A stretch of DNA of 64,000 bases from Desulfobacula toluolica Tol2 (lineage in GTDB: Bacteria; Desulfobacterota; Desulfobacteria; Desulfobacterales; Desulfobacteraceae), in the NCBI RefSeq assembly GCF_000307105.1, contig NC_018645.1:1562578-1626577 (forward strand). Direction: 5' to 3'. The notes under the pieces were generated by a model that saw only the letters and a list, made by a program, of their open reading frames with translations, was not told the DNA's origin and searched no databases. Below, piece after piece: positions 1-18,843 of this stretch (within the stretch, counting starts at the first letter, position 1; each line of letters begins with the position of its first letter). Both the position numbers and the translations under genes were made by a program.

Positions 1-1896
1 GTCAAAACCGGACAGCACAAGCTTTTTTTTGTTGTTGGCGGCAAGGATCATCCCCTGGGAAAGTTCTCCCATAAGTTTTGCTTCTTTCAAGTTTGCAACA
101 ACAATCACCTGTTTGCCTACGATCTGTTCGGGTGTATAGTCCTTTGCAATTCCTGCAATGACCTGCCGCACCTCAGCACCAAGATCCACCTGAAGCTTTA
201 ATAGCTTGTTGGATTTTTCAATTTTCTCAGCCTTTACAACGGTTCCTGTCCTTAAATCAATTTTTGCAAAATCATCAATTGTGATTTCTTTTTTTAATGC
301 CGGTTTAAAAGACTTGGTGGCTGCAACAGTTTCTTTGGGGGGGATTTTATCCGTATCAATTCTTGGAAACAATATCCCGGGTTTTTCTACCAGTGTTCCT
401 GGTTTGATCTGTCCCCATGAAGCTGTTTCTTCCAGGGTGTAAAATCCGTTTTCCTTTTTTGCCATGCAAAGGGTTTTTTGCATTTTATAGGATGTGTCAG
501 GCATAATAGGATAAATCAGGCAGGAAACAACCCGTAACCCCTCGATCAGGTTATACAGAACCGTTGCAAGAACAGGGGTGTTGGCTTCATCCTTGGCCAG
601 AGCCCAGGGTTCATTGGTATCAATATATTTATTCATGATGCTGATAAATTGCCAGACAGCTCCCACGCCTTTATGGAATTCACACACGGCCATGGCTTGT
701 TCAAAAGCATCAATGGCAGTTTTTGCATCAGATTCCAGGGACAGGGATTTTTTTTGTTCGATTTGCAGGTCCAATCCTTTTACCTCGCCATTGAAATAGC
801 GATGGGTCATGGAAAGGATTCTTGAAAAAACATTTCCAAGATCATTTGCAAGGTCTGAGTTGATTCTTGAGACAATAGTTTCCTCTGTGAAATTTGCATC
901 CAGGCCAAAGACCATTTCCCTCATGAGAAAATATCTGAAAGAATCCACGCCGTACTGCGCCGTCACCTGAACAGGATCTGTGACATTACCGATGCTTTTG
1001 GACATTTTGCTGCCTTTGACATTCCAGAACCCGTGAACATTCAAGCCATTATAAATCGGTATTCCAGCAGCTTTGAGCATGATGGGCCAGTAAATCCCGT
1101 GGGGCTTGATAATGTCTTTTGCCACAAAATGGCGGGTTGTGGGCCAGAATTTTTTGAACCGCTCACCATCAGGGTATTCCAGTGCTGAAATATAATTTAC
1201 AAGGGCGTCAAACCAGACATAGGTGACATAATCTTCGTCAAAGGGCAGGGTTATCCCCCATGTCAGCCGGGATTTCGGTCTTGAAATGCAAAGGTCTTCC
1301 AGGGGTTCCTTTAAAAAAGAAAGAATTTCATTTTTGTACTGGGCAGGCCGGATAAAATCAGGATTGGTTTTAATGTGATTGATGAGCCATTCCTGGTATT
1401 TGCTCATTTTGAAAAAATAATTGGATTCTTTTATAATCTCGGGTGCGGTTCCATGATCCGGGCATTTGCCGTCCACAAGTTCCCTTTCCTGGTAAAAGCG
1501 TTCACATCCAAAACAATACAGTCCCTCATAGCTTGAAAAATAGATATCTCCTGACTCATAAATTTTTGACAGAACCTTTTTGACCACTTGAATATGATTT
1601 GGATCTGTTGTTCTGATAAATCGGTTGTTTTTAATGTTTAATACAGGCAATAAATCCTGAAACAGCTTGCTGATTATGTCGGCATACTCTTTTGGTGTTG
1701 TTTGCCTGGCTTTTGCCGCCTGGACAATCTTGTCCCCATGTTCATCGGTTCCGGTTAAAAAAAAGGTGTCATGGTTATCCATCTGCTTGAATCGTGTTGC
1801 AACATCAGCGCAGATGGAGGTGTAGGCATGACCCAGATGGGGTTTTGCATTGACATAATATATGGGGGTTGTAAAATATTGCTTTTGAGTGTTCAT
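1..1896 (-). CDS. metG: Methionyl-tRNA synthetase, C-terminus cut by window edge
   Basis: Charges tRNA-Met with methionine in the cytoplasm. 632 codons are open with no stop, so the protein runs off the left edge. The last visible residues (EQIVGKQVIVVANLKEAKLMG region) are the end of the C-terminal tRNA-binding OB-fold, so little is missing. The class I signature is HLGH at residues 20-23 and KMSKS is at about 297-301. A zinc knuckle of the C-x2-C...C-x2-H kind lies near residues 127-147. The start ATG overlaps the ricT stop as ATGA, which implies translational coupling. This is the last visible gene of the lptD-to-metG series. Identity is secure. Confidence 0.96.
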   Translation of the reverse strand, partial: MNTQKQYFTTPIYYVNAKPHLGHAYTSICADVATRFKQMDNHDTFFLTGTDEHGDKIVQAAKARQTTPKEYADIISKLFQDLLPVLNIKNNRFIRTTDPNHIQVVKKVLSKIYESGDIYFSSYEGLYCFGCERFYQERELVDGKCPDHGTAPEIIKESNYFFKMSKYQEWLINHIKTNPDFIRPAQYKNEILSFLKEPLEDLCISRPKSRLTWGITLPFDEDYVTYVWFDALVNYISALEYPDGERFKKFWPTTRHFVAKDIIKPHGIYWPIMLKAAGIPIYNGLNVHGFWNVKGSKMSKSIGNVTDPVQVTAQYGVDSFRYFLMREMVFGLDANFTEETIVSRINSDLANDLGNVFSRILSMTHRYFNGEVKGLDLQIEQKKSLSLESDAKTAIDAFEQAMAVCEFHKGVGAVWQFISIMNKYIDTNEPWALAKDEANTPVLATVLYNLIEGLRVVSCLIYPIMPDTSYKMQKTLCMAKKENGFYTLEETASWGQIKPGTLVEKPGILFPRIDTDKIPPKETVAATKSFKPALKKEITIDDFAKIDLRTGTVVKAEKIEKSNKLLKLQVDLGAEVRQVIAGIAKDYTPEQIVGKQVIVVANLKEAKLMGELSQGMILAANNKKKLVLSGFD

Positions 1897-2705
1897 TGTC
1901 GGGTAGATCCTGTTTTTGAGTTATTCAGTTGCCGTATGGTTTTTTCTATTTCAGTATTATCCTCTAAACGAATGGTGATACTTTCTTTTAAAACATTCTG
2001 CCGGATAACTTTTCCCTGGCCTTCTTCCACTGTTATTCTTTTTCCAAGTTTGGGCATCTGGCGCTTAAGGTTTTTATAGGTTTCATTTTCAAAGGTCAGG
2101 CAGCACATTAACCGACCGCAAACCCCTGAAATTTTTGTGGGATTCAAAGACAGTCCCTGTTCTTTTGCCATTTTGATGGAAACCGGTTCAAACGTGTGCA
2201 TAAAAGAGGAGCAGCAAAGCTCTCGTCCGCATTTTCCCACACCGCCGCAATGTTTTGACAGATTGCGAATGCCGACCTGGCGCATTTCAATGCGAATGCC
2301 GAATTCTTTTACCAGCAGTTTAATCAGTTCTCTGAAATCAATTCTGCCGTCAGCAGTATAGAAAAAGGTCAACTTGTTTTTGTCAAATGTACTTTCAACA
2401 CTGAACAGATTCATGAACAGATCCAGATCATTGATGGCTTTAATACAAAAAGAGAATGCTTTTTTTTCAAGGTTTTTTATCTCTTCTCTTTGAAGGAAGT
2501 CTTCTTTGGTGGCAACACGGACAATTTCTTTTAATTTTTTTTCAACAGCTTCAACTTCAACGGGAGGTATGGCAATTTTACCGAATCCAAGACCCTGTTC
2601 GGTTTCTACAATAACCCGGGTGCCCTCTTTGAGTACAAAAGCACCTGAGTTGAAATCATATATTTTTCCTGCTGTTTTAAATTTAACACCAGCAACTTTA
2701 ATCAT
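1893..2705 (-). CDS. ricT: PSP1-domain protein, RicT/YaaT family
   Basis: A 270-residue protein of the PSP1/RicT family. In Bacillus, RicT joins the iron-sulfur Ric complex that affects RNase Y and phosphorelay; in this lineage its role is not established. The central cysteine cluster (CGGVGKCGRELCC and CGRLMCC) is the family hallmark and is intact. An open frame extends to 2732, but I prefer the ATG at 2705 (MIKVAGVKF). It has a purine-rich AAAGGAAA upstream and overlaps the holB stop by 8 bases. It sits between holB and metG, a common bacterial order, and overlaps metG by 4 bases. Family is certain, biological function less so. Confidence 0.9.
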   Translation of the reverse strand: MIKVAGVKFKTAGKIYDFNSGAFVLKEGTRVIVETEQGLGFGKIAIPPVEVEAVEKKLKEIVRVATKEDFLQREEIKNLEKKAFSFCIKAINDLDLFMNLFSVESTFDKNKLTFFYTADGRIDFRELIKLLVKEFGIRIEMRQVGIRNLSKHCGGVGKCGRELCCSSFMHTFEPVSIKMAKEQGLSLNPTKISGVCGRLMCCLTFENETYKNLKRQMPKLGKRITVEEGQGKVIRQNVLKESITIRLEDNTEIEKTIRQLNNSKTGSTRQ

Positions 2706-3732
2706 AAACACCGTTTCCTTTGTTTGTAACAATTTTAAGGAAAAATCTATCCAAGGTTAATCTCAGGGAACAGTTTGAGGCCAGCCTTTTTTCTGTTTCA
2801 TACAGATTTTTAGTCCATTCTAAAAATTTATTTGATCTTACCATCCGGTTAATATCTGCAAAAGTGTCAAAAAAATCAAGATTAACTATTTTTTTTGGAT
2901 GAACCTTAAAAATCATTAAGTCCCGGAAAAAGGTTTTCATAATAGCTATCGTGTCATCCATAAGGTCGGGATTAAGGCTTAATTTTTGTGACAGCATCAA
3001 AGTTTTTGATATACAGTCGCTTGTTTCTGTTGTAATGATGCCTGCCAGGGTATTGATCAGCCACTGCCGCCTTTTGATCCAGTCTGTTTTATTCTCATCA
3101 TCATCCAGATTCGAATACATCATGGCTTTTTTTATATCAGAATCGGCTGTTCTTGATGCAATCCTGGCAAAAGGCCTGTCAATATTAAAATTGTTTATCA
3201 GATATTGCTCAATGAGTTTGTCGTTCAATGGTTTGAACTTGATTTTACGGCATCTGGAAATAATGGTTGAAAGCAGCAATGAAGTTTTGTTGGCAATAAG
3301 GATAAAAAATGTCTTTTCAGGCGGCTCTTCAAGCAGTTTTAATAATGCGTTCTGAGCCTGGTTATTCATTAGATCCGCGTTCAAAATCAATACCATTCTG
3401 AATCTGGCTTCATTAGGCCTGGAAGAAATGGTCAAGCCCATTTCACGAATCTGGGATATGGAAATTATTTTTTTGTCTTTTTGAAGGTCAATACACAGGA
3501 CATCAGGGTGGCTTTGTGCCTCTATTTTGAGGCAGGACTTGCAAGCGTTGCAGGCAATTGGTGCATTTGCCAGGCAATTGCACCCCTTTACAAAGAAAAA
3601 TGCCGCTTTTTTTCTTCCGGTATTATCATTGCCGGAGAAAAGAAGGGCATTTGGAATTTTGTTTGTCTGAATGATATGTGTTAACTCAAGAAAGACGCTT
3701 GCTTGATATTGCTCTTGATCAAAATCAGACAT
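2698..3732 (-). CDS. holB: DNA polymerase III delta-prime subunit
   Basis: Clamp-loader subunit of 344 residues. The N-terminal AAA+ domain has a degenerate P-loop (GNDNTGRKK instead of GxxGxGKT), as expected for the non-hydrolysing delta-prime subunit. It is followed by the zinc cysteines CNCLANAP..CNACKSC and the sensor-type LLKLLEEPPEKTFFILIAN stretch shared with DnaX. The C-terminal part is helical and variable. It overlaps ricT downstream and starts 19 bases after the IHF-like gene. The DnaX partner is encoded at 18.8-20.5 kb. Identification is firm from domain order and the LEEPP motif. Confidence 0.92.
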   Translation of the reverse strand: MSDFDQEQYQASVFLELTHIIQTNKIPNALLFSGNDNTGRKKAAFFFVKGCNCLANAPIACNACKSCLKIEAQSHPDVLCIDLQKDKKIISISQIREMGLTISSRPNEARFRMVLILNADLMNNQAQNALLKLLEEPPEKTFFILIANKTSLLLSTIISRCRKIKFKPLNDKLIEQYLINNFNIDRPFARIASRTADSDIKKAMMYSNLDDDENKTDWIKRRQWLINTLAGIITTETSDCISKTLMLSQKLSLNPDLMDDTIAIMKTFFRDLMIFKVHPKKIVNLDFFDTFADINRMVRSNKFLEWTKNLYETEKRLASNCSLRLTLDRFFLKIVTNKGNGVYD

Positions 3733-3751
3733 GGTTTGATACCCATATTTG

Positions 3752-4027
3752 TTAATAATCTACCCGTTCCTTTAATTCTTTTCCGCATTTGAAAAACGGC
3801 AGCCTTTTGGGAGGTATGGTGACTTTTTGGCCGGTTTTCGGATTTCTGCCGGTATAGCTTTTGTACTCTTTTATATGAAAGCTGCAAAAACCCCTTATTT
3901 CAACCCTTTCACCTTTTATAAACGACTCGGAAAGCGAGTCAAAAAATATTTTAATAATTTCTGATGCTTCGGATTTTGTAAGGTCGGCTCTATCTTTTAA
4001 TGCGGAAATTAATTCAAGTTTATTCAT
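3752..4027 (-). CDS. HU/IHF-family DNA-bending protein (IHF-like)
   Basis: A 91-residue protein with the whole HU/IHF fold: an N-terminal helical pair, GFCSFHIKEY in the beta-saddle, and the minor-groove arm GRNPKTGQKVTIPPKRLPFF. The extra residues and the start MNKLELISALKDRADLTKSEA look more like IHF beta-type subunits than HU; a canonical HU-like protein is encoded separately at 39.3 kb. It lies between the NusG paralogue and holB on the same strand. Whether it pairs with another IHF subunit cannot be judged here. Family is certain; the IHF versus HU assignment is inference. Confidence 0.9.
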   Translation of the reverse strand: MNKLELISALKDRADLTKSEASEIIKIFFDSLSESFIKGERVEIRGFCSFHIKEYKSYTGRNPKTGQKVTIPPKRLPFFKCGKELKERVDY

Positions 4028-4109
4028 GCTTCCTCTTTAATATATTGAATGGTGCAAGCTTGTTATTTTTTAAACGGTTTTAATGAATATTTGATAAAAA
4101 GTCAAGGGG

Positions 4110-4634
4110 TTATGACAATAAGTCAGGCAGTTTCTCAACATTGTCTTCATGAATATCAACACCGGCATACTGTCCTAAAACTTCTATTTTGATAATAACA
4201 CGGCCTTTTCCCTTGTAGTGTGTAAATTCTCCCCTTGCCCCGGCCATGGGGCCTTCTAAAATTATCACAGGGTCGCCTTTTTTCATGCGGATATTGGAAC
4301 CGGTGATAAGATCCTTCTTTGCGCTGGTAAGGATTTTTAAGGATTCAATCTGTGAATGGGGAATGGGCAATGGTCCTGATTTGTTGCCCAATAGTCTTAC
4401 AGCTCCTATGGTTTTTAAAATATTGAGTTGGTCGGCAGCATTAAATGTTGATTGTACAAAAATATATCCCGGAAAAAGCGGTACTTTGATCATGAGTTTT
4501 CGGTCTTTGCGCTGGCTTTTTTTTCTTGTTGTTGGTAAAAAAGCCTCAACCTTTTTTTTTACAATACTCGTGTACACCGTTTGCTCAAAGTTACTTCTTG
4601 TCAGAAGGGCAAACCAGTTTGATTTTTCAATCAT
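4110..4634 (-). CDS. NusG-family transcription elongation factor (RfaH/UpxY-like paralogue)
   Basis: A 174-residue protein with an NGN domain (NWFALLTRSNFEQTV, then VPLFPGYIFV at about 51-60) and a C-terminal KOW motif (KKGDPVIILEGPMAGARGEF, about 118-137). The sequence resembles operon-specialised NusG paralogues (RfaH, UpxY, LoaP types) more than core NusG, which normally sits in a secE-nusG-rplK operon. The start overlaps the lptD stop as ATGA, so it is coupled to lptD. Those paralogues commonly suppress termination in long polysaccharide operons. Its target here is unknown, and no polysaccharide operon is visible. Confidence 0.85.
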   Translation of the reverse strand: MIEKSNWFALLTRSNFEQTVYTSIVKKKVEAFLPTTRKKSQRKDRKLMIKVPLFPGYIFVQSTFNAADQLNILKTIGAVRLLGNKSGPLPIPHSQIESLKILTSAKKDLITGSNIRMKKGDPVIILEGPMAGARGEFTHYKGKGRVIIKIEVLGQYAGVDIHEDNVEKLPDLLS

Positions 4635-6853
4635 GTTGCTCCAAACTCTCCTATACCGTGAAGATTTATCAGAAAGCTGATACTTTGTTCGTCCTGTGAA
4701 TCCGAAAAATAAAGATTGAATGTCCAGCAGGACTTTTTCAGGGATAGTCCTGCCTGTTTTTCCACATCCCTATCTTCTTTCAGGTTCTTTTCAATGGAAT
4801 AATATGCGGTTATTTCTTGGGTGAGGGCGATATTTATTTTTGAATACAGTGATTCCGAAAGAGTTCTGGAATAACGGTATTCTGTTGTTAACCGGTCTCC
4901 TCTGTTGTCTGAGAGAGTGTTCCCGATGTTAAAACCGTTAAAATGGTTGTCATAGGGAGACCAGGAAAGATCCATGTCAAGACGGATAAAATCGTTTGGG
5001 GAAAGCTCCGCATCCATTGTGATATCTGAAAACGGCCTTAATTCGTTGTCCTTTTCTTTGTTGATATCATAACTTTGGGACAATTTGATATAGGCAATGT
5101 CACGGTAGGTTGATATCTGTTTTCCTTTTGGTGTGATATGGGATTTTCTGGAAATAAAATTATTGGTCAAAGACCAGGTGATCAGGTGTTGTTCCTCGAT
5201 ATTGTCCAGAGAGTCAAAGGCCGGCAGGTCATCTTGATTAATATCCGGGGTAAACGCGTATTCAAGCTTAGGGATGAGTTCATGTTTGAGCTTTTCAGCG
5301 CATTTCATATTCAGATCAAAAAGCTTGATCAGTTTTGTGGACAGTTTTGCGCCGACATCATACAATTGTCTGGTTCTAAGATTGTCTGAGTTGCCGTTAA
5401 TATCCGTAAACTCGTTTGTGTGCCATATGGTTTGCCGCAAGCCTAGTGATGGCTCAAAGTGCAAAAACCTGCCAAGTCTCAAAGGAATATAAAATTTAGG
5501 ATAAAAATCTGCTCTTTGCCCGCTTACAAGAGTTGCGGTTGTATCCTGCCTGTAAAAGGAACGAAGCTCGGTATCAAGAGAATAATATAATTTTGAAGCA
5601 CTGATCTGCTGCTTTGAAGCATCAAACCGGATGCCCGGAAGTGTCTGCAATGTCGTGTCGGCCGTATCCTGACGCCTGGCATTAATATTGTCATACCACA
5701 GGGCATCCATATTTAAGGCATATGTAGACCATGTTTTGTTGAGATTCAGCCGGTTTTTCCTTATAGAATCAGTATATTCATCTATGCTGCGACCGAATTG
5801 GTTTTCAAAATAGTCCCTGGTTTCAGTGTATCCGGTAAACCCGTCCTTGAATTCATGAAGGTAATCTTCATCACTGACCACATCAATATCCAGTTTGGCG
5901 GTAACTCCATTGGGAAGATCCTGGTTGTGTTTCATTCTTAACCAGAACCGGTCGCTGTTGGTTCTTTGGGGAGTCCCGGAAAAACTATAATTTTGTGTCT
6001 GCTCTGTTCCATCATCTGTTTTTTTGTCTTCAAGCACGTCAAAGAATACGGCTCCCCTGGTCTTGTTATCCAGGATATATCTGTATTCCGTGGCTAATTT
6101 TGTTCCCCGATCTGCCATGTAATCCGCATAAAGGGTCGCGTCTGTATTTCTTGATATGTCTATAAACAGAGGCTGTTCAAATTCAAAGCCTTTTCTGTCG
6201 GATGAAGTGATTCTCGGTGCTAAAAGGCCTGTTTGCCGTTTGGTATGAACCGGAAAAATCAGAAAAGGGCTGTAGGCTGCCGGCATTTTTTTTGCCCAGA
6301 GTACCGTATGATCGGCAACGCCGTAACCTTCGACCGTAACCTTGATGTTTTTTGCCGTGATTTTCCAGTCAGGTGAGTCTCCGGAACAGGATGTGATGGA
6401 GCCTTTTTGCGCACTATAAGAAAATTTCCCGGTTTTTTTGATATTTTCGCCATGCACATAAAAATTATTTTTTTGAATATAAATGGTGCCTTTGTCTACA
6501 GTGCCTGTCTGGGTTGAAAGATTGATATTCATTTCATTGCAGGATATGGAATCTTCGCCGGATATTAAAATAACATTGCCTTTGGCAAAAGCATCTTTTG
6601 TTTTGTTTGAAAATTCAACATAGTCGGCTTCAAGCCGGGTTTTGCCTCCGGTTATCACCACATTGTCCTGGGCGATATAAAGGTTTTTTTTGTTATCAAA
6701 AGTCACTGTGCGTGCGGCGATATGCCAGGGGATATCCTTGAGATTTTGAGGTGAGGCAGTTGTTGTGGCAAATCCATTGCTTGAAATAAAAATATAAAAA
6801 AAAGAAACCATTACAAAAAGTAATGGATACTTTTGCCTTGACCAACAGAACAT
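4631..6853 (-). CDS. lptD: LPS-assembly outer-membrane protein LptD
   Basis: Outer-membrane translocon that inserts lipopolysaccharide into the outer leaflet. The 740-residue product starts with a signal peptide (hydrophobic YPLLFVMVSFFYIFISSNGFA). A periplasmic OstA/LptA-like jellyroll follows (RTVTFDNKKNLYIAQDNVVI...), then a long beta-barrel rich in alternating aromatic strands ending at GEFGAT. The frame is open to 6883 from a TTG/ATG pair, but the ATG at 6853 has a well-placed GGAAAG and leads directly into the signal peptide. It heads a minus-strand series with the NusG paralogue, and a TTGACT/TTTATA promoter lies upstream. Confident. Confidence 0.92.
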   Translation of the reverse strand: MFCWSRQKYPLLFVMVSFFYIFISSNGFATTTASPQNLKDIPWHIAARTVTFDNKKNLYIAQDNVVITGGKTRLEADYVEFSNKTKDAFAKGNVILISGEDSISCNEMNINLSTQTGTVDKGTIYIQKNNFYVHGENIKKTGKFSYSAQKGSITSCSGDSPDWKITAKNIKVTVEGYGVADHTVLWAKKMPAAYSPFLIFPVHTKRQTGLLAPRITSSDRKGFEFEQPLFIDISRNTDATLYADYMADRGTKLATEYRYILDNKTRGAVFFDVLEDKKTDDGTEQTQNYSFSGTPQRTNSDRFWLRMKHNQDLPNGVTAKLDIDVVSDEDYLHEFKDGFTGYTETRDYFENQFGRSIDEYTDSIRKNRLNLNKTWSTYALNMDALWYDNINARRQDTADTTLQTLPGIRFDASKQQISASKLYYSLDTELRSFYRQDTTATLVSGQRADFYPKFYIPLRLGRFLHFEPSLGLRQTIWHTNEFTDINGNSDNLRTRQLYDVGAKLSTKLIKLFDLNMKCAEKLKHELIPKLEYAFTPDINQDDLPAFDSLDNIEEQHLITWSLTNNFISRKSHITPKGKQISTYRDIAYIKLSQSYDINKEKDNELRPFSDITMDAELSPNDFIRLDMDLSWSPYDNHFNGFNIGNTLSDNRGDRLTTEYRYSRTLSESLYSKINIALTQEITAYYSIEKNLKEDRDVEKQAGLSLKKSCWTFNLYFSDSQDEQSISFLINLHGIGEFGAT

Positions 6854-6895
6854 ATTCTTTCCAGTAAAAAAATTGCACATCAATTAAAATTACTG

Positions 6896-6925
6896 TATAA
6901 AGCCATTTTATACTTTAAAAGTCAA
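6896..6925 (-). promoter_or_regulatory. Candidate sigma-70 promoter for lptD
   Basis: On the minus strand, TTGACT (6920-6925) and TTTATA (6896-6901) are separated by 18 bases, about 40 bases upstream of the preferred lptD start. This matches the housekeeping consensus well. There is no experimental support. Confidence 0.45.
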
Positions 6926-6934
6926 GTTAAGAAT

Positions 6935-6992
6935 ACCGGGATTTAGACAAGTCCTTCAGGATTACCAGGATTTGTACAGGTCCGTAAGGCAA
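6935..6992 (+). repeat. Imperfect 29-bp tandem duplication in the leader of the CysK-CysS fusion
   Basis: Two adjacent 29-base units (6935-6963 and 6964-6992) share about 20 positions, with the common pattern ACCrGGATTT..ACArGTCC...AGG. They occupy nearly all of the region just before the ribosome-binding AAAGGG of the fusion gene. It could be a degenerate duplication or a structured leader; nothing matches a known riboswitch. Confidence 0.4.
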
Positions 6993-7006
6993 AGGGTAAA
7001 TGAAAA

Positions 7007-9292
7007 ATGGCAGTTTCAATTATTGATTCTATTGGCAACACCCCTATTGTTGAAATAACACATATGAATCCTGAAAAAGGGGTGAGAATTTTTGCCAAAC
7101 TTGAATATATGAATCCCGGCGGTTCAATCAAGGATCGGGCAGCCCTCTATATGATCAACGAGGCGGAAAAATCCGGTGAATTAACCCCTGATAAAATCGT
7201 TATCGAAGCAACCAGCGGGAACACGGGTATCGGACTGGCCATGATCTGTGCCGTCAAAGGATATAAAATTGCGCTCACCATGGCTGAAAATGCCAGTGCT
7301 GAGCGGATAAGTATTTTGCGCGCAAGGGGGGCACAGATTATTTTAACCCCCAAGCATCTCGGGTCTGATGGTGCAATTGAAGAAGCCTACAGGCTTGCCC
7401 GTGAGAATCCGGACAAGTATTTTTTGACCGACCAATATAATAATGAAGCCAACTGGAAAGCCCATTATTATACCACGGGGCCTGAAATTATTGAACAGAC
7501 CGGTGGCAAGGTTTCTTGTGTGGTTGCCACCATCGGGACCAGCGGAACCCTGATGGGTCTTTCCAGGAGCTTGAAAGAGTTTAACAAGGATATCCAGATC
7601 GTATGTGCTGAGCCGTATTTAGGGCATAAGATTCAGGGACTCAAAAATATGAAGGAGTCTTACACTCCTGAGATCATGGACAAAACCCGCCTGGATAAAA
7701 AAATTAATATTGATGATGATACTGCGTTTGAGACAGCCCGAAATCTTGCTGTAAAAGAAGGGCTTTTTGTCGGAATGAGCAGTGGTGCTGCCATGGCGGT
7801 TGCCATTGAAGAAGCGCGAAATATTAAAAAAGGCGTTATTGTGGTGATCTTCCCGGACAGTGGTGAGCGGTATCTGTCCACCACTCTTTTTTGTGTGGAA
7901 AAACATATTGCCCTGTCACTTTTTAATACGCTGTCAAAATCCAAGGTGGTATTTGAACCGCTTGAAAAAGAAAAAATTTCCATATACACCTGCGGTCCCA
8001 CTGTTCATGAAAGGCTCAATATCGGTCAGCTCAGGCGGTATGCTTTTACGGATTTGCTCATAAGATACATTGAATACCATAAAATTGCCGTCAACCATGT
8101 GGTTAATATCACGGATTATGACGATAAGACGATTCAAGGTTCCCAAAAAGCCGGGATGACCCTTCCCGAGTTTACGCAGACCTATATTGATTTTTTCAAG
8201 CAAGATCTTTCAAAATTGAATATCCGTTCGGCTGATGCCTATCCTAAAGTATCAGACCATTTTGATGAAATGGTTGATCTGGCAAAACAATTGCATTCAA
8301 AACAGCATGCCTATGAAAAATTGCATTCCCTGTATTTTGATATTGCCAGTCTGCCGGAGTATGGTGATTTTTCAAGTACTGATCTGGATAAGATAAAAAT
8401 CGGTGCAACAGTTGATCTTGACGAGTATGAAAAACAAAACCCAAAAGATTTTACATTGTTAAAAAGGGTTCGTCTTTCAGAACTCAAAAGAGGTGTGGGG
8501 ATCAAGACCCAATGGGGCAATGTTAGACCTTCTTTGCATTTGCAATGTGCGGCCATTGCCATGAAGTTTTTAGGAGAGTCGTTTGATATCCAAACCGGCA
8601 GCCGGGAACTTGTTTTTCCTCATCATGAAAATGAAGTCGCCATTGCAAGGTCTGCAAAGGGGGCAAGTCTTGCCCGGTACTGGCTGCATTGTGATCCTGT
8701 TCATTATGACGGGTCTTTGGGTGCGCCAAAAATAGAAACAATGACACTTGATGAGCTTGAAAATCAGGGGTGGGCCCTTAAAACCATTCGGTTCTGGCTG
8801 ATTTCCAATCATTACAGGAAAACCCTGGTATTATCAAAAAAATCCTTGACTCAGGCAGGATATACCTTGGATAAAATTAACCGATGCCTTGCTACCTTGA
8901 GTGCCATTGAGCAGGGAAATCATTATGAAGAGATTGATCAATTAATATACAATATAAAATCATCGTTTCTTGAATCCATGGAGGATGATTTAAAAATATC
9001 CGGTGTTGTTTTTTCATTGCTGGCAAATGTAAAAACCATTAACCGCTTGATCAATGAGAATTCAATTGATCCTGACAGCGCCCAAAAACTGTTGCATTGC
9101 TTTAAAGAAATTGATTCTGTTCTTCAGATTTTTAATTTTGATAAAAAAACGAAATATTCAAATGCAATTCAAGATCTATTAAGAAAACGTGATTGCGCAA
9201 GAGAGCAAAATGACTGGGAACTGGCTGACAAGATTCGAGAACAGTTAACAGCGTTGGGCATCAGCATTCATGATAAAAAGGTGGAGCCATGA
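7007..9292 (+). CDS. Fusion of cysteine synthase (CysK/CysM type) and a degenerate cysteinyl-tRNA synthetase domain
   Basis: A 761-residue two-part enzyme. Residues 1 to about 305 are a PLP-dependent O-acetylserine sulfhydrylase. They show NPGGSIKDR with the PLP lysine at 42, TSGNTG at 69-74, the phosphate-binding GTSGT at 177-181 and SSGAAMA, so this half looks active. Residues from about 306 are cysteinyl-tRNA-synthetase-like: YTCGPTV at about 328, the second zinc cysteine at about 514 and FPHHENE at about 537-543 are kept. However, HIGH reads NIGQ (338-341), and the KMSKS position reads GAPKIETM (572-579). The frame is continuous across the junction, with no internal start signal. The next gene overlaps it by 4 bases. 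Either half-product or a true bifunctional enzyme is possible; aminoacylation is doubtful. Confidence 0.88.
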   Translation: MAVSIIDSIGNTPIVEITHMNPEKGVRIFAKLEYMNPGGSIKDRAALYMINEAEKSGELTPDKIVIEATSGNTGIGLAMICAVKGYKIALTMAENASAERISILRARGAQIILTPKHLGSDGAIEEAYRLARENPDKYFLTDQYNNEANWKAHYYTTGPEIIEQTGGKVSCVVATIGTSGTLMGLSRSLKEFNKDIQIVCAEPYLGHKIQGLKNMKESYTPEIMDKTRLDKKINIDDDTAFETARNLAVKEGLFVGMSSGAAMAVAIEEARNIKKGVIVVIFPDSGERYLSTTLFCVEKHIALSLFNTLSKSKVVFEPLEKEKISIYTCGPTVHERLNIGQLRRYAFTDLLIRYIEYHKIAVNHVVNITDYDDKTIQGSQKAGMTLPEFTQTYIDFFKQDLSKLNIRSADAYPKVSDHFDEMVDLAKQLHSKQHAYEKLHSLYFDIASLPEYGDFSSTDLDKIKIGATVDLDEYEKQNPKDFTLLKRVRLSELKRGVGIKTQWGNVRPSLHLQCAAIAMKFLGESFDIQTGSRELVFPHHENEVAIARSAKGASLARYWLHCDPVHYDGSLGAPKIETMTLDELENQGWALKTIRFWLISNHYRKTLVLSKKSLTQAGYTLDKINRCLATLSAIEQGNHYEEIDQLIYNIKSSFLESMEDDLKISGVVFSLLANVKTINRLINENSIDPDSAQKLLHCFKEIDSVLQIFNFDKKTKYSNAIQDLLRKRDCAREQNDWELADKIREQLTALGISIHDKKVEP

Positions 9293-10260
9293 CAATAAAA
9301 TTTTTATTTTTCCCATTCACTCATATTACACAAAATCAGTTGGACACTTTGTTAACTTTTTTACCCTTATTTCACCATTTGCCTGTCAGTCCTGATTTTA
9401 AGCAGGATCAAACGCTGCAGAACTTATTTGAACAAGGAAAAATCACCCCGTTTTTTTCATCACGCAATGAGCTTGAGCCGGTTGAACAAAAATTTGAACA
9501 ATATCTTGCATGGGCCAGTATCCATAAGGGAAATCAAGTAAATCTTAAATCTCTTCTAAGGGACACTCCTTATTTTACAAGTGATACCCATGTAACTGCC
9601 ATAAAATCTCAAATCAAAGGAACTCAAGGAGGTATTGTCTCGGCTGAGTCGGTTGAATCAGATGAATCTGTTTTGCAACGCGATTTATTGTTTTTAAAGA
9701 TGGCGCAACTGTGTGATGAGCAGAATGAGCGCATTGATCTGGAGTTGAAAAATCTGGATAAAACCCGTGAAAAAATGGTTTCAGCCTTGCGCGGTTTAGA
9801 AGAACCCCCAAGTGAAGCCCAATCTTGTAAAACAGGCGATCGTCAGGATTTTGGAGCTGTAATGACCCGGGAACGGATCAGTGCCTGGTCAGGGTGTATG
9901 GCGCAAAAAGGGGGAATAAAACCGGACGGTAACATGCCTTTATTTGTTACGACCAGTGAAGCTGTTTTTGATCATCTTGAGTCGAATTGCAAAGATATTG
10001 TAAATACCCTTGACATTGATCAGATAAAAGTGCATGAGAATTGTTGTGAAAACAAAAGCGAGTGGCAACATCAGTTTTGTGATTATTTGATGGATGCCAT
10101 TCAAGGATGTGGCAACCGGGAAAATGATTTGCCTGAAATAAAGGACGGATGTTCTCTTTTCGGGCAGATTAAACTCAGTTATTTTTCCGGCAACGGTATT
10201 AACAATCTCTTTAATATGTCGGATATTCAGATACCTGTATGTTTGATCAAATTAAAGTGA
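9289..10260 (+). CDS. Protein of unknown function coupled to the CysK-CysS fusion
   Basis: A 323-residue soluble protein that I do not recognise. The start ATG overlaps the stop of the fusion gene (ATGA), so the two are almost certainly co-translated. It has no signal peptide or clear membrane segment. A central charged helical stretch (about 140-175) resembles a coiled coil. The C-terminal half carries several scattered cysteines (SGCMAQ, SNCKD, ENCCENK, FCDY, QGCGN, DGCSLF), more than expected for a protein this size. A metal- or thiol-related role alongside cysteine metabolism is a guess. Confidence 0.75.
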   Translation: MTIKFLFFPFTHITQNQLDTLLTFLPLFHHLPVSPDFKQDQTLQNLFEQGKITPFFSSRNELEPVEQKFEQYLAWASIHKGNQVNLKSLLRDTPYFTSDTHVTAIKSQIKGTQGGIVSAESVESDESVLQRDLLFLKMAQLCDEQNERIDLELKNLDKTREKMVSALRGLEEPPSEAQSCKTGDRQDFGAVMTRERISAWSGCMAQKGGIKPDGNMPLFVTTSEAVFDHLESNCKDIVNTLDIDQIKVHENCCENKSEWQHQFCDYLMDAIQGCGNRENDLPEIKDGCSLFGQIKLSYFSGNGINNLFNMSDIQIPVCLIKLK

Positions 10261-10377
10261 TAAAAAAACTTGATTTTAATTAATCACATGTTATAAAGCA
10301 TTTTTTACACAAGATTATATATAAAAGATGGTTTTATAATATAATAATGTTAATTTTTTTTTAAGGAGGCTATTAAA

Positions 10378-10566
10378 ATGGCATTTCATCCAATTGTTGA
10401 CCAGGCAAAATGTGTTGGTTGCGAAGAATGTGTAGACGTATGTCCCGTAGAAGTTTTCGAAATGCAAGATGAAAAATCAGTTCCAGTCAATGCAGAAGAA
10501 TGCATGGGCTGCGAAAGCTGCGTTGAAGTTTGTGAAGAAGATGCTATTGTAGTTGAAGAAGATTAG
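10378..10566 (+). CDS. Small 2x[4Fe-4S] ferredoxin
   Basis: A 62-residue acidic ferredoxin. Two cluster-binding motifs are complete: C-x2-C-x2-C-x3-C at residues 12-22, followed by P, and again at 43-53. In the second motif the proline after the last cysteine is replaced by E. It is preceded by a strong AAGGAGG site and followed by a terminator, so it is monocistronic and probably highly expressed. It is likely a general low-potential electron carrier of anaerobic metabolism; its partners are not encoded nearby. Confidence 0.93.
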   Translation: MAFHPIVDQAKCVGCEECVDVCPVEVFEMQDEKSVPVNAEECMGCESCVEVCEEDAIVVEED

Positions 10567-10601
10567 TTTAAAAAACATCTTACTTGCAATATGCAATAGA
10601 T

Positions 10602-10643
10602 AAAATGCCGGGTGTGATTATGATCACCCCGGCATTTTATTTT
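10602..10643 (+). terminator. Rho-independent terminator after the ferredoxin gene
   Basis: The inverted repeat AAAATGCCGGG / CCCGGCATTTT has a short AT loop and is followed by ATTTTA. It lies 36 bases past the ferredoxin stop. The stem is strong and GC-rich at its core. Confidence 0.8.
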
Positions 10644-10696
10644 ATGGCCGACATTGTGATCAAGCCCAAAAAATATCTTTTCAGGATAAATATTTT

Positions 10697-12520
10697 ATGC
10701 AGAATCAAACAGACAAACGATTTGCTTCACAAACCATCTGCAAAATTCTTATGGCTGCCAAATTGATTTCAGCACAACAGGCCAGGGATCTTTTAAAGAA
10801 TGAGAACAGGGTAAAAAATATTCTCATCAAACAGAAAACCAAACAATCTGATAAAGATGGATCAAAAGGGCATATAGCCGCCCCGGTTTGTTTTGTAGAT
10901 GTTATTTTGTACATGAAAATAGAACGTAAGGATCAGCCATCCCTAATAATTGATGAAGATTTGATTTACCAAACCCTGGCACAAGCCTGGAAAGTACCCT
11001 ATAAAAAAATTGATCCCTTGAAACTTGAACTGAATCTTGTGACAGGAACCATATCAAAATCATTTGCCGCAAAGTATTTGCTGCTGCCGTTAAAGGTCGA
11101 GGAGGGAAAGCTTATTGTCGCAACCCCTGATCCTTTTAATTATGAGGCCATCAAAGATGTCGAGATGGTGTCAAAGCTGAAAGTAAAGACTGTTGTCAGC
11201 TCAAAGTCGGATATTGAAAAACTGATCAATGAATTTTTTGGATTCCAGTATTCCATTTCTGCGGCAGCAGATCTTTTTTCAACAAAAGGGATTGATATCG
11301 GCAACCTTGAACAGTTTGTCAGTTTAAAATCCTTTGATGAGCTTCCCTCAACCGATCAGCATATTGTGAATGCAGTAAATCATTTATTTTCCTATGCCTT
11401 TGATCAAAAAGCCTCTGATATCCATATCGAACCCAAACGAGATATCTGCCTTATCAGGATGAGAATCGACGGGGTACTCAATACCGTATACAAGCTTCCC
11501 AAAAAGCTTCATAATGCCGTGGTCAGCAGGATTAAAACTCTTTCCAGGCTGGATATGGCTGAAAAAAGAAGGCCCCAGGACGGCCGGATTAAAATAGAGC
11601 AACACAACAAAGAGGTTGAAATCAGGGTTTCCACCATCCCGGTGGCGTTTGGTGAAAAAGTGGTGTTAAGAATCATGGATCCTGATGTTCTTTTTCAGGA
11701 CCTGGAAATGCTGGGTTTTTTTAAAGATGATTTTGAAAGATACAAGCAGCTGATTACCCGGCCTTTTGGTATCGTTCTTGTAACAGGGCCAACAGGATCA
11801 GGCAAATCCACCACCCTTTATTCAAGCTTGAAAATGCTGTCTTCACCGGAGGTCAATATTACGACTATTGAAGACCCCATTGAAATGATACATGAGGAAT
11901 TCAACCAGATTGCAGTGCAGCCGATGATTAATGTGACCTTTGATTCCGTCTTGAGAAATATACTTCGACAGGACCCTGATATTATAATGGTGGGTGAAAT
12001 AAGAGATCTTGAAACAGCCCAGGCGGCAGTACAGGCTGCATTAACAGGTCACCTTGTTCTTTCCACGCTTCATACAAATGATGCGGCCTCCACCATTTTC
12101 AGGCTGCTTGATCTGGGGATTCCCCCTTATCTTGTTCATTCCTCATTAAATGGGATTGTGGCACAGCGGCTAGTGAGAAAGATCTGTCCATATTGTGCCC
12201 AGGAAGTTGAAATGGATGCAAAAGATCTTGCCGAACTTGGACTTAATATTAAATCCAAGGGTATGATCCGTCTCAAGCATGGCAAAGGGTGTGTAAAATG
12301 TCGGAACACCGGTTATAAGGGGCGCACGGGGATATATGAAATCATGCCGTATACGGACGCTTTAAAAAGGCTGACCACTTCTGATGTACAATTGGGAAGT
12401 CTGAGAAAAAAAGCTATTGAAGAAGGGCTTGTTCTTGTGCGTCAGAATGGTATTAAAAAAATGCTCAAGGGGCAGACCACATACCAGGAAATCCTGAGGG
12501 TCACCTGGGAACAGGTATAG
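10697..12520 (+). CDS. GspE/PilB-family secretion or pilus-assembly ATPase
   Basis: A 607-residue hexameric ATPase. It has an N-terminal GspE_N-like domain (about 85-190). The ATPase domain carries Walker A GPTGSGKSTT at about 364-373, an Asp box, Walker B and GEIRDLETAQ. A tetracysteine zinc module (CPYC...CVKC) is near residue 495-537. It powers assembly of a pseudopilus or type IV pilus at the inner membrane. It stands alone here, with no pilC, pilM or pilin neighbours, and is distinct from the gspE at the right edge. PilB, MshE or a second GspE cannot be separated by eye. Confidence 0.85.
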   Translation: MQNQTDKRFASQTICKILMAAKLISAQQARDLLKNENRVKNILIKQKTKQSDKDGSKGHIAAPVCFVDVILYMKIERKDQPSLIIDEDLIYQTLAQAWKVPYKKIDPLKLELNLVTGTISKSFAAKYLLLPLKVEEGKLIVATPDPFNYEAIKDVEMVSKLKVKTVVSSKSDIEKLINEFFGFQYSISAAADLFSTKGIDIGNLEQFVSLKSFDELPSTDQHIVNAVNHLFSYAFDQKASDIHIEPKRDICLIRMRIDGVLNTVYKLPKKLHNAVVSRIKTLSRLDMAEKRRPQDGRIKIEQHNKEVEIRVSTIPVAFGEKVVLRIMDPDVLFQDLEMLGFFKDDFERYKQLITRPFGIVLVTGPTGSGKSTTLYSSLKMLSSPEVNITTIEDPIEMIHEEFNQIAVQPMINVTFDSVLRNILRQDPDIIMVGEIRDLETAQAAVQAALTGHLVLSTLHTNDAASTIFRLLDLGIPPYLVHSSLNGIVAQRLVRKICPYCAQEVEMDAKDLAELGLNIKSKGMIRLKHGKGCVKCRNTGYKGRTGIYEIMPYTDALKRLTTSDVQLGSLRKKAIEEGLVLVRQNGIKKMLKGQTTYQEILRVTWEQV

Positions 12521-12556
12521 CATTAAAATTAGCTGCTGGGTGCTGATCATAAGCGG

Positions 12557-13585
12557 TTAATTTACCATATCATCAGTGTGAATGGCATAGGTTGAAGATA
12601 AAATCATAACTGTTGAAGCAATATTCTCGGTATGAAGCACAATCAGTTTTCCGGATTCCAGGTTTTCAAGCTGAATTGAATCGTTCTTTTTTTTCAGCGA
12701 CCAGAGGGTATTATCTGTCAGCTTGTTTTTTCTGAAAATCGAGTAAATCTGTCCGGGTTTAACCTTTGTGCCCGCATCAATAAAAGCAATCCGATAGTCA
12801 TTGATCATTATGTTATTATCTTCGGAACAGATAATTCTTGCATCAATGGGCCCAGGATCATCTTCAACCGTTAATATTGAATCGCGCTTATAATATTCCA
12901 TGATCAAATCATTTTTATAGACAGGCTCATATGCGTTGGTGATCAACCCGGTTGCATACATTTTTTTACGTTCAAGTATTTTTACTTTTGCCTTGATCAG
13001 GTGTTTTACTGCTTTAAAGGTTTTGTCGTTGATTGTTTCTTTAACATCACTGGTCGTGAAAATCTGGTAGATTTTGCCTGGAACCAGTGGCCCTTTTCCT
13101 GATGGTTTGATGTAAATAATGTCATTAGCCGACATCATCAGCTGATCGTCCTTTTCTTTGATAATGCTGCCAAGGGACAGTTGTGCTTTTTTTCTGAGAA
13201 ATCCTATATGATCCATTCCGGAAAGAGAAAAAGAGGTTTCAATCTTGATGGGCATCTTTTTTTCTTTTGTTTTCCGGACCGTTACAATTTTTGGCTTAAT
13301 TGGGGGTGTTTCCTTTAAAAAGATCCTTATTTTTTTTCCGGGGTATATCTGGTGGGGATTTTTTATGTTATCATTCATCTCCCAAAGCCCTGGCCAGTCC
13401 CATTGCGAATTATAAAATTTTTCAGACAAATCCCACAAGGTATCTCCTTTTTGTATGGTATAATAAAACCCTGAGTCCTCGCCTATTATAAATTTTTTAT
13501 CATCTCCAGCAAATCCTGTCGAACATAAAGCAACTGCCCAAATGGTGAAAGCAAAAGCTGCTGTCATTGTTCCCTGGTTTCGCAT
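12557..13585 (-). CDS. Secreted LysM-domain protein
   Basis: A 342-residue exported protein. A signal peptide (AAFAFTIWAVALCSTGFAG) is followed at about residues 40-95 by one LysM motif (YYTIQKGDTLWDLSEKFYNSQWDWPGLWEMN..IYPGKKIRI), which binds peptidoglycan. The remaining 240 residues hold repeated beta-rich segments with the phrases KPGQIYSIF and VPGKIYQIF, so a duplicated small domain is likely. The start is the ATG at 13585, because CAGGAGG lies at the correct distance; the in-frame ATG at 13600 precedes that site. It is convergent with the ATPase gene and divergent from the HD hydrolase. The role in the envelope is unknown. Confidence 0.82.
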   Translation of the reverse strand: MRNQGTMTAAFAFTIWAVALCSTGFAGDDKKFIIGEDSGFYYTIQKGDTLWDLSEKFYNSQWDWPGLWEMNDNIKNPHQIYPGKKIRIFLKETPPIKPKIVTVRKTKEKKMPIKIETSFSLSGMDHIGFLRKKAQLSLGSIIKEKDDQLMMSANDIIYIKPSGKGPLVPGKIYQIFTTSDVKETINDKTFKAVKHLIKAKVKILERKKMYATGLITNAYEPVYKNDLIMEYYKRDSILTVEDDPGPIDARIICSEDNNIMINDYRIAFIDAGTKVKPGQIYSIFRKNKLTDNTLWSLKKKNDSIQLENLESGKLIVLHTENIASTVMILSSTYAIHTDDMVN

Positions 13586-13621
13586 ATTTTCCTCCTGCAT
13601 GGTGCTGGTTTATCTCAAAAA

Positions 13622-13660
13622 CTTGACTTTATTTAACCTCCTGTTCTATAAAAAGTCAAG
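13622..13660. promoter_or_regulatory. Overlapping divergent promoters with a 9-bp dyad
   Basis: CTTGACTTT (13622-13630) and AAAGTCAAG (13652-13660) form a perfect inverted repeat. Read rightward, TTGACT and TATAAA are 18 bases apart (13623-13652), serving the HD gene. Read leftward, a TTGACT and TTAAAT pair about 17 bases apart could serve the LysM gene. The symmetry may reflect the two back-to-back -35 boxes rather than an operator. Confidence 0.5.
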
Positions 13661-13707
13661 AATTGTTGCAAAAGCATGTAATCAAGGTCATAGAATCTGG
13701 AGTGAAA

Positions 13708-14259
13708 ATGAAACAGATTGCCAACTTATTGTTTGAGGCTCGAATGTTAAAGGATCTTGCTCGATCCGGATATGCTTTTCTAGGGTCGGGAAAAGAAAGT
13801 ATTGCTGAACATAGCTTTATAACAGCTTTTATATGCTTTGCCATGGCTAAAATGGATGATGATATTAGTTGTGAGAAATTAGTGACCATGGCATTGATTC
13901 ATGATATTGCAGAGGCGAGAACAGGTGATTTTAACTATGTGGAAAAAAAATATTCAAAGGTTGATGAGGCCAAGGCAGTTTCTCATTTGATAAAGCACAT
14001 TTCTTTTGGTAATGATATAAAAAATCTTATTGATGAATTTAATTCAGGAGAAACAAAAGAGGCAAAATTAGCCAGGGACGCGGATCAGATATCTTTGGTT
14101 CTTGAATTGAAGAAGTTAGATGACACAGGAGCAAAAGGCCTTGAAAAATGGTTTTCAGATGTTCTCAAAAGACTTGAAACGGATATGGGCAAGCAAATGG
14201 CCCAAAGCATAATGGAAACCCGTTGGAATGAATGGTGGATGAATGATGGCTCCGAATAA
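13708..14259 (+). CDS. HD-domain phosphohydrolase (YfbR/5'-deoxynucleotidase-like)
   Basis: A 183-residue protein of the HD superfamily. The metal ligands are visible: H in AEHSFITAF, HD in LIHDIAEARTGD, and D in ARDADQIS. The overall length and the Arg-rich start match YfbR-like 5'-nucleotidases acting on deoxynucleoside monophosphates; the substrate here is inferred. The start is the ATG at 13708 with GGAG five bases upstream, although the frame is open from 13663. It is monocistronic between a divergent LysM gene and a repeat-bearing intergenic region. Confidence 0.82.
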   Translation: MKQIANLLFEARMLKDLARSGYAFLGSGKESIAEHSFITAFICFAMAKMDDDISCEKLVTMALIHDIAEARTGDFNYVEKKYSKVDEAKAVSHLIKHISFGNDIKNLIDEFNSGETKEAKLARDADQISLVLELKKLDDTGAKGLEKWFSDVLKRLETDMGKQMAQSIMETRWNEWWMNDGSE

Positions 14260-14293
14260 CTACCAAGAGCAGATAAATCTGTCATGTAAGTTT

Positions 14294-14388
14294 TTTTATA
14301 TGAAAGTCTTCAAAAATCCAAACAGCGACTTTCATGTTTTGTTATTGGCAAATCTGAGCGAAAGACCAGGTCTGCCCGTGGAAGTTTA
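14294..14388 (+). repeat. Dispersed two-hairpin repeat, copy A
   Basis: Reference copy of a repeat of about 95 bases. The left end is TTTTATATGAAAGTC. Hairpin 1 pairs ATGAAAGTC with GACTTTCAT across an 18-base spacer. A GGCAAA...TCTGCC second arm pair follows, and the right end is near GTGG.AGTTA. It lies in the 257-base space between the HD hydrolase and the HD-GYP gene. Matching copies are at 49.4, 55.7, 56.8 and 60.8 kb. Confidence 0.75.
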
Positions 14389-14436
14389 TATGAAAAAACT
14401 TTCAACCCGCTGAAATTAAATACCTTTTATTATTTG

Positions 14437-14490
14437 TTGTGGCAGGGTGATTTGCCATGGCCGTTATATGAAAATAAGTCCGAATAAATC
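14437..14490 (+). repeat. Partial relative of the dispersed repeat
   Basis: The stretch TTGTGGCAG...TTTGCCATGG...TTATATGAAA matches the sequence that flanks copy E near 49.5 kb on its left (TTGTGGCAG...CTGCCATGG...TTACATGAAA). It therefore looks like a truncated or decayed member that includes an adjacent GGCAG/CTGCC hairpin. Confidence 0.45.
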
Positions 14491-14516
14491 AGGTTTAATG
14501 GATCGTTAAGGATGCT

Positions 14517-15857: not shown

Positions 15858-15860
15858 CAA

Positions 15861-16619
15861 ATGGATTTATCTTCGATTATCGGCATTGTTTCAGGCATGG
15901 GCTTTGTCCTTGGAACCATACTGCTTGGCGGCGGTCTCATGACCTTTGTCAACATCCCTTCGATTTTGATTGTTCTAGGCGGTACCATGGCGGCCTCAAT
16001 GATAGCCTATCCCCTCAAGGATTTCCTAAGTATATTTAAGACAACTATGAAAGTTTTTATCTTTAAACTTCAGCCGACAAATGAAATTATTACCAACCTG
16101 GTTGAAATTTCCAACAAAGCAAGAAAAGGTGGGCTTCTTTCCATTGAAGGGGATATACAAAATGCCGGTAACCCATATCTTGCACAGGCTTTGCAGATGA
16201 CGGTTGACGGTGTGAAAACAACTGATATTGCAGCGATTATGCAAAAAAAGATGGCTTTGACAAAAAAAAAACTGGATGTTGGTGCCAGTATTTTTGCCAG
16301 CATGGGATCGTATGCACCTGCTTTTGGAATGATAGGAACATTGATCGGACTGGTACAGATGCTTGCCAATCTTGATGATCCATCGTCCATTGGTCCGAAA
16401 ATGGCGGTTGCAATGATTACCACGTTTTACGGATCAGTTCTGGCCAACCTGTTTTTTATTCCCATGGGAGATAAACTGACCTGCCGCAATGAAGAAGAAA
16501 TGGTTAACATGAACATTATTTTCGAAGGGATTATTTCTATAAGGGAAGGCGAACACCCTAAACTTATGGAGGATAAGTTAAATATTTATCTGGACGGTTC
16601 AAAAGAAAGCAAAGAATAA
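15861..16619 (+). CDS. motA: Flagellar motor stator protein MotA (PomA-like)
   Basis: A 252-residue inner-membrane ion-channel subunit with four membrane spans: about 5-25, 30-50, 150-170 and 180-205. It has the conserved GSYAPAFGMIGTLIGLVQML segment and the YPLKDF/cytoplasmic loop contacting FliG. The sequence is closer to sodium-type PomA (MDLSSIIGIVSG start) than to E. coli MotA; ion choice is inferred. It is followed by motB after 23 bases and preceded without a gap by the degenerate HD-GYP gene, so the three are probably one operon. Confidence 0.93.
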   Translation: MDLSSIIGIVSGMGFVLGTILLGGGLMTFVNIPSILIVLGGTMAASMIAYPLKDFLSIFKTTMKVFIFKLQPTNEIITNLVEISNKARKGGLLSIEGDIQNAGNPYLAQALQMTVDGVKTTDIAAIMQKKMALTKKKLDVGASIFASMGSYAPAFGMIGTLIGLVQMLANLDDPSSIGPKMAVAMITTFYGSVLANLFFIPMGDKLTCRNEEEMVNMNIIFEGIISIREGEHPKLMEDKLNIYLDGSKESKE

Positions 16620-16642
16620 TTTAATTAAAAAGAGAATACCAT

Positions 16643-17461: not shown

Positions 17462-17480
17462 TATGGGAGCAACCTATAAG

Positions 17481-18510: not shown

Positions 18511-18517
18511 GTTTTTT

Positions 18518-18826: not shown

Positions 18827-18843
18827 GGTTTGTCACTCCTGTC

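Follow-up and report, generated by a model that had tools for sequence, protein, structure and literature searches.

A cysteine synthase fused to a catalytically degenerate cysteinyl-tRNA synthetase in Desulfobacula toluolica Tol2: a candidate for control of cysteine synthesis by tRNA-Cys

Why should an enzyme that makes cysteine carry, on the same polypeptide, a cysteinyl-tRNA synthetase (CysRS) that appears to have lost the means of activating cysteine? The question is raised by a gene at 7007-9292 (+) in a 64,000-nucleotide stretch of the Desulfobacula toluolica Tol2 genome (contig NC_018645.1, positions 1,562,578 to 1,626,577; hereafter the window), which its frame, Pfam and NCBIfam matches and homologues identify as a fusion of a CysM-type cysteine synthase with a catalytically degenerate CysRS. 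We tentatively propose, as a possibility somewhat short of probable, that the product works as a cysteine synthase and that tRNA-Cys, via the covalently attached dead CysRS, governs its activity or its location; of this proposal, we infer the tRNA binding, the allostery and the substrate. It builds on features legible in the sequences, namely the catalytic motifs of CysM, the loss of the ATP motifs, the retention of anticodon-contacting residues, purifying selection on the protein, its conservation over the phylum, and the finding that the fusion is often the only cysteine synthase found, in genomes with no detectable cysE-like gene.

The gene is a single ATG-started frame of 761 codons plus a stop, in agreement with the sequence-only reading of this locus, which had described one frame joining a PLP cysteine synthase to a CysRS-type domain. 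Pfam places PALP at residues 7-284 (245 bits), tRNA-synt_1e (PF01406) at residues 316-617 (232 bits) and the anticodon-binding domain CysS_C at residues 718-758 (9158-9280 (+); 31.8 bits, cut-off 23). From these matches, TIGR01136 cysKM and alignments with the E. coli proteins we delimit a CysM/CysK-like pyridoxal phosphate (PLP) domain at residues 1-298 (7007-7900 (+)) and a CysRS catalytic domain (Rossmann fold and connective peptide, CP) without ATP motifs at residues 303-617 (7913-8857 (+)). An AlphaFold2 model built from an alignment of 40 sequences (mean predicted local distance difference test, pLDDT, 85.5; predicted template-modelling score, pTM, 0.60) predicts two well-folded halves in an uncertain mutual orientation, and Foldseek matched it to CysM (2bhs_A, template-modelling score, TM, 0.92) and to E. 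coli CysRS from a tRNA complex (1u0b_B, TM 0.81 by target).

Near full-length fusions, counted by eye as matches covering at least residues 5-738 (one ends at residue 738), are present in 113/146 genomes of the window's order, its own included, two of which (G087 and G017; G and L numbers are our labels for genomes and loci) hold one stop. In the phylum, judged from named relatives to be Desulfobacterota and scanned in 345 genomes at least 90% complete at E<=1e-105, 143 genomes matched, 4 of them partially, and 139/345 carry a near full-length fusion, again with the window's own. A sequencing error or two artificially joined genes can be ruled out, as the frame is unbroken in 111/113 near full-length matches of the order and 139/139 of the phylum. 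Among the best 80 of 149 relatives in a scan of named genomes, made with patterns from close relatives and possibly lacking the records of the window's own genome, carriers include records titled Desulfobacula, Desulfobacter, Desulfamplus, Desulfatibacillum, Desulforhopalus, Desulfofustis, Syntrophaceae and Desulfobulbaceae, and the nearest by fusion protein is a Desulfobacula metagenome-assembled genome (MAG; L061, 85%). A contig titled as a Myxococcales MAG also carries the fusion (L134, 6001-8298, 46% identity), by transfer, mis-binning or an old name.

For residue counts, 175 loci yielded 156 full-length fusions, 144 of them different including the window's, while 15 loci held fragments or non-fused matches and 4 held none. 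Sampling is unequal, with some two dozen rows closely related to the window protein (at least 69% identity). The alignment used for the zinc and anticodon residues comprises these 144 and the diverged copy L195, 145 rows in all. In a tree with 18 canonical CysRSs (17 from relatives and that of E. coli), all 37 fusion CysRS halves sampled from the 145 fall on one side of a branch with a Shimodaira-Hasegawa-like approximate likelihood ratio (SH-aLRT) of 100. Both halves are under purifying selection in comparisons with eight near relatives; among the seven with a computable synonymous rate (dS), the ratio of nonsynonymous to synonymous rates (dN/dS) is about 0.07-0.12 in the Rossmann/CP part, and selection is weaker in residues 621-761, at about 0.15-0.26. 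Three genomes (G073, G099 and G476, the last being the source of L195) hold two fusion copies; in G073 and G476 one copy stands further from the window's fusion than its partner does, and in G099 one copy has no zinc cysteines (L170).

The N-terminal half has what a cysteine synthase of this family should have. It scores 363.7 bits against TIGR01136 cysKM (cut-off 344.15) but falls short of the cysM equivalog (364.9 bits, cut-off 394.2), and 136/286 aligned residues are identical to E. coli CysM. The motifs lie where the sequence-only reading had put them, with K42, the PLP-binding lysine aligned with K41 of E. coli CysM (7130-7132 (+)), T69-S70-G71-N72-T73-G74 and G177-T-S-G-T181; K42, S70-T73, G177-T178 and G180-T181 are kept in 144/144 fusion sequences. 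Motifs and family score thus make it a member of the cysteine synthases, with activity and substrate predicted. Equally invariant in the alignments (144/144) is K213 (7643-7645 (+)), a basic residue aligned with R210 of E. coli CysM, where O-acetylserine sulfhydrylase A (OASS-A) has Ala231 (PMC3805590). The separate CysK of the window genome has no residue aligned with K213. The CysM of Mycobacterium tuberculosis is reported to use O-phosphoserine as substrate and the sulfur-carrier CysO as donor (PMC12910592, PMC11361707).

The C-terminal half matches E. coli CysRS over its full length, anticodon domain included (2.8e-61), and has lost both of the motifs that handle ATP. The HIGH position reads NIGQ (residues 338-341, 8018-8029 (+)) and the KMSKS stretch reads GAPKIETM (residues 572-579, 8720-8743 (+)), exactly as had been noted from the sequence; HIGH with both outer histidines occurs in 0/144 different fusions, and the second KMSKS lysine (E. 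coli K269) in 0/145 rows. A KMS remnant persists in 15/144 fusions, so the loss of the ATP motifs looks gradual. A still-active form with HIGH and KMSKS was sought in the 144 sequences and none was seen; L195, a candidate canonical CysRS by score (357.7 bits), carries neither motif. Judged by sequence, it is very unlikely that this half activates cysteine, which bears out the earlier view that the normal ATP route is closed. We therefore hardly credit an active CysRS with unusual motifs: the window protein does keep its zinc site and anticodon domain, but it reaches 312.3 bits against an NCBIfam cysS cut-off of 340 (which some relatives exceed), and a canonical cysS, recommended by the sequence-only reading as a thing to look for, lies complete elsewhere in the genome (G000:C1:1288755-1290203, 575 bits). 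A separate cysS match above the cut-off is likewise present in 40/40 fusion genomes chosen for pathway analysis, two of them partial (G236 and G181).

What, then, could the dead half still bind? All four zinc ligands are present in the window protein, as previously stated: C329 (E. coli C28; 7991-7993 (+), kept in 126/145 rows), C514 (E. coli C209; 8546-8548 (+), 129/145) and the two in H539-H-E-N-E543 (E. coli H234 and E238; 8621-8635 (+), histidine 144/145, glutamate 112/145). Across the family the full set is found in 104/144 fusions and is incomplete in 40/144, which takes at least 13 changes on the tree of the CysM half. One or both zinc cysteines are gone in 21/144 fusions, with at least six changes on the same tree, and K42, S70, G71, N72 and K213 are kept in 21/21 rows without a zinc cysteine. 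The sequences thus mark the zinc site as expendable in the family, having been repeatedly lost while the fusion was otherwise kept. The place of E. coli W205, which we take to be the pocket tryptophan, is occupied by L510 in the window protein, and Leu stands there in 40/145 rows. A cysteine sensor, in which the zinc pocket would bind free cysteine and feed back on the CysM half, would come closest to HisZ, a histidyl-tRNA synthetase (HisRS) homologue that mediates inhibition by histidine (PMC9437257), and it suits the intact ligands of the window and of the other complete sequences. We nevertheless regard it as an unlikely explanation, given the losses just described and the leucine at the tryptophan place, and since it leaves the strictly kept anticodon residues unexplained. 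Because the site was lost so often, the cysteine sensing or transfer through a zinc thiol site that had been suggested for this protein cannot be the general function of the family; the suggestion stands as a possibility for the lineages that keep the site, the window's among them.

The anticodon domain follows another course. In E. coli CysRS, R423, R427, W432 and D436 contact G34 of tRNA-Cys (PMC12684709), and the aligned residues of the fusion are R728, R732, W737 and D741 (9188-9229 (+)). In rows ungapped at these positions the equivalents of R423 and D436 are kept in 143/143, that of R427 in 142/143 (one K), and that of W432 is W, F or Y in 143/143, the 18 canonical CysRSs being split between W (9/18) and F (9/18). 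The two gapped rows are L163 and L144, and the match in the genome of L144 stops at residue 553. D756 (9272-9274 (+)), equivalent to E. coli D451, which presumably also contacts the anticodon, is present in 143/143 ungapped rows. The contact set is retained in 20/20 covered rows without a zinc cysteine (21 such rows in total). Where the canonical CysRSs are invariant (92 columns), the fusions keep the residue at a median of 0.87, and 24 columns reach 0.99. Four columns drawn at random from the 92 would all reach 0.99 with P = 0.004, although the columns are not independent; contact with the anticodon, rather than conservation, was the ground for choosing R423, R427, D436 and D451. The rest of the domain is variable, with 57-70% identity to the eight near relatives, and the fold can do without it, because the match to the MshC model ends before the domain and CysRS* is reported to lack it (PMC9437257, PMC7609411). 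By alignment, then, the fusion has an anticodon domain with the G34 contacts, and the dead CysRS half, keeping the parts that grip tRNA-Cys, may sense or carry tRNA-Cys. An inert module for dimerisation or stability would account for the differing decay of ATP-site motifs and zinc ligands among sequences and for the faster evolution of the C-terminal part, but it is improbable in view of the purifying selection and the invariant anticodon-touching residues. L510, the anticodon-binding domain and its kept tRNA-Cys contacts had escaped the sequence-only reading, as had the frequency of the fusion in the phylum and its standing as the only cysteine synthase found in many genomes.

That last point was established in 40 of the 143-odd fusion genomes, hand-picked to be complete and to spread across families. 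In 20/40, which span 12 family codes, no cysKM match (E<=1e-60) other than the fusion was found. A cysE match (E<=1e-30) was found in 1/20 of these fusion-only genomes (G192, weak) versus 19/20 of those with a second cysKM (the exception being G254), a difference with a Fisher probability of 5.8e-9, uncorrected for kinship. For comparison, 15/20 non-fusion phylum genomes, listed from the 202 without a match at 1e-105, carry a cysE match. Cysteine synthesis can apparently rest on the fusion in genomes with no recognised O-acetylserine-forming enzyme, and O-phosphoserine is perhaps the obvious substitute substrate where cysE is absent, in view of the invariant K213 and of the O-phosphoserine use reported for M. 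tuberculosis CysM. A bolder possibility is that the CysM half turns a serine derivative on tRNA-Cys into Cys-tRNA-Cys, as a one-protein bacterial counterpart of SepCysS; the kept tRNA-Cys contacts and the invariant basic K213 in the active-site loop of the CysM half would fit. We think it highly improbable: the SGNT loop, which in cysteine synthases holds a free carboxylate, is invariant, the separate cysS match is universal in the 40 genomes, and SepCysS exceeded its cut-off in 0/20 fusion-only genomes, with two weak matches. Nor are we aware of an enzyme in these genomes to mischarge tRNA-Cys, although no search for SepRS was made.

We propose that in genomes without CysE the fusion would catalyse the step that commits the cell to cysteine, in its simplest form the conversion of O-phosphoserine and sulfide to cysteine and phosphate. 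With CysE absent and this step committed, feedback on CysE cannot operate, and the pseudo-CysRS would supply control through binding of tRNA-Cys: uncharged tRNA-Cys, a signal of cysteine shortage, would favour synthesis, and charged tRNA-Cys, or free cysteine where the zinc pocket survives, would damp it. Control by tRNA-Cys is favoured since the CysRS half seems scarcely able to charge tRNA yet keeps the residues that read tRNA-Cys, and is thus well placed to report demand. The same kept contacts would serve a protein that binds tRNA-Cys, and perhaps the true CysRS too, only to place cysteine synthesis beside charging, with no allostery, and the scaffolded SepRS-SepCysS complex of archaea offers a precedent (PMC5424206). 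We rank this tethering or channelling as the main rival, though in itself a rather unlikely one: a contact between fusion and CysRS found no support, and the cysS of the window genome lies elsewhere (G000:C1:1288755). Cysteine sensing by the zinc pocket comes third, possibly as an addition in lineages that keep the pocket. A stronger form, which we hold as a speculation less likely than control by tRNA-Cys in general, is an obligate complex in which the tRNA is held by the dead CysRS, so that the presence of uncharged tRNA-Cys fixes both the place and the time of cysteine synthesis, which might even proceed on the tRNA itself.

Several observations weigh against control by tRNA-Cys as the explanation. 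Twenty further columns of the CysRS half, a good number of them catalytic-domain positions, match the anticodon residues in conservation, H539 is present in 144/145 rows and the HEN triplet is nearly always kept, indicating constraint on parts of the catalytic domain as well; the R/D pairs may in part maintain the fold. The window genome itself has adjoining cysE-like and cysK genes (G000:C1:316198 and 315258), and the fusion is not its sole route to cysteine. None of the cysE matches in the 40 fusion genomes passes the curated cut-off (0/40; that of the window genome also falls below it), versus 6/20 non-fusion genomes with a match above it, so the matches represent diverged enzymes and a more distant cysE could be missed at E<=1e-30. 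As for the substrate, the classical SerC model matched in only 9/20 fusion-only genomes, other SerC types not being covered by it; a basic residue at position 213 is no proof of O-phosphoserine use, as E. coli CysM is also basic there (R210). The CysM of Campylobacter jejuni is reported to take O-acetylserine only (PMC9855970). Finally, the second fusion copies of some genomes may serve other roles.

If control by tRNA-Cys is correct, the fusion would be a new coupling of amino-acid supply to translation, a biosynthetic enzyme with its own tRNA reader, and it would reveal that cysteine is widely made in genomes where no serine acetyltransferase is detectable, by an enzyme that could easily be misnamed, as a plain cysteine synthase or as a cysteine--tRNA ligase. 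If the obligate complex is correct, a phylum of sulfate reducers and their kin would hold, in a single bacterial protein, the counterpart of the tRNA-linked pathway by which archaea make cysteine.

The genes around the fusion offer a possible partner. Overlapping it by four bases is a gene for a protein of 323 residues (9289-10260 (+)), of an uncharacterised, fast-evolving family and a possible operon partner; in 51/80 named loci a homologue (E<=1e-5) follows the fusion downstream on its strand, at a distance of up to about 340 bases. Pfam assigns the 323-residue protein to no family at E<=0.001, a threshold of E<=0.1 adds only weak, scattered matches, and its confident AlphaFold2 model (pLDDT 83.5) matched no solved fold at E<=0.001. 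A homologue of the divergent neighbour at 4631-6883 (-), whose product we take to be LptD-like, is near the fusion in 48/80 named loci, so the genomic place of the fusion looks old. Promoter-like sites around the fusion gene (11 versus 11.3) and terminator-like sites (3 versus 3.7) were no more numerous than in shuffled sequence, and an Rfam scan of window positions 1-20000 gave no match. A tRNA-Ser (GGA) gene at 20564-20655 (-) is the sole tRNA gene found in the window.

We found no published description of a cysteine synthase-CysRS fusion, in line with the earlier statement that no characterised example was known, although the subscription literature lay mostly outside the search and the result is not proof. 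The known systems each share part of the arrangement. With CysM (O-acetylserine sulfhydrylase B) the fusion shares an N-terminal part of 298 residues that passes the cysKM cut-off; it differs in being fused, in scoring below the cysM equivalog cut-off and in often occurring in genomes without a cysE match. With canonical bacterial CysRS it shares full-length homology, including the anticodon domain and the G34 contacts, but it is without HIGH and KMSKS, and its zinc site is variable across the family. The SepRS-SepCysS system likewise links cysteine synthesis to tRNA-Cys, with other enzymes.

Repurposed CysRSs form a second group for comparison. CysRS* retains its ATP motifs, and the fusion is its reverse, with the anticodon domain kept and the ATP motifs lost; the defining features of CysRS* are not found in it. 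A review table of aminoacyl-tRNA synthetase (aaRS) paralogues lists CysRS* and MshC for CysRS (PMC9437257). Like the fusion, CysRS* is a second CysRS in what is apparently the same order, Desulfobacterales, and it is attributed to Mukai 2017 and reported to have no anticodon domain and to charge selC* (PMC9437257, PMC7609411). A second canonical-looking CysRS was seen in one genome (L219 1443-2552, G117), its match stopping short of the anticodon domain, which CysRS* is likewise reported to lack. Two further loci (L217 1580-2785 and L218 1564-2811, in G460 and G397) hold another CysRS paralogue that retains KMSKS, reads HVGN at the HIGH position, has Asp in place of the second zinc cysteine and gives a match that does not reach the anticodon domain, a pattern nearly the reverse of the fusion's; it is perhaps a ligase for another amino acid, and one TAG is flagged there, outside the aligned part. 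The mycothiol ligase MshC, named in the sequence-only reading as a precedent, is also a repurposed CysRS, but an ATP-dependent ligase (PMC9437257), and in the comparison proposed in that reading the fusion reaches 151.1 bits with the MshC model, whose cut-off is 485.1.

The closest likeness is one of logic. HisZ and HisRS are class II homologues, and the matches of the fusion are to CysRS families and not to HisRS. In HisZ-HisG, as proposed for the fusion, a non-adenylating aaRS paralogue is coupled to the enzyme that opens the biosynthesis of its cognate amino acid (PMC9437257). HisZ is a separate subunit homologous to HisRS, whereas the fusion carries a CysRS homologue covalently and with its anticodon domain kept. 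By analogy, HisZ, a paralogue of HisRS in charge of the enzyme that starts histidine synthesis, would be the nearest logical precedent for a cysteine synthase under the control of its own attached, inactive CysRS.

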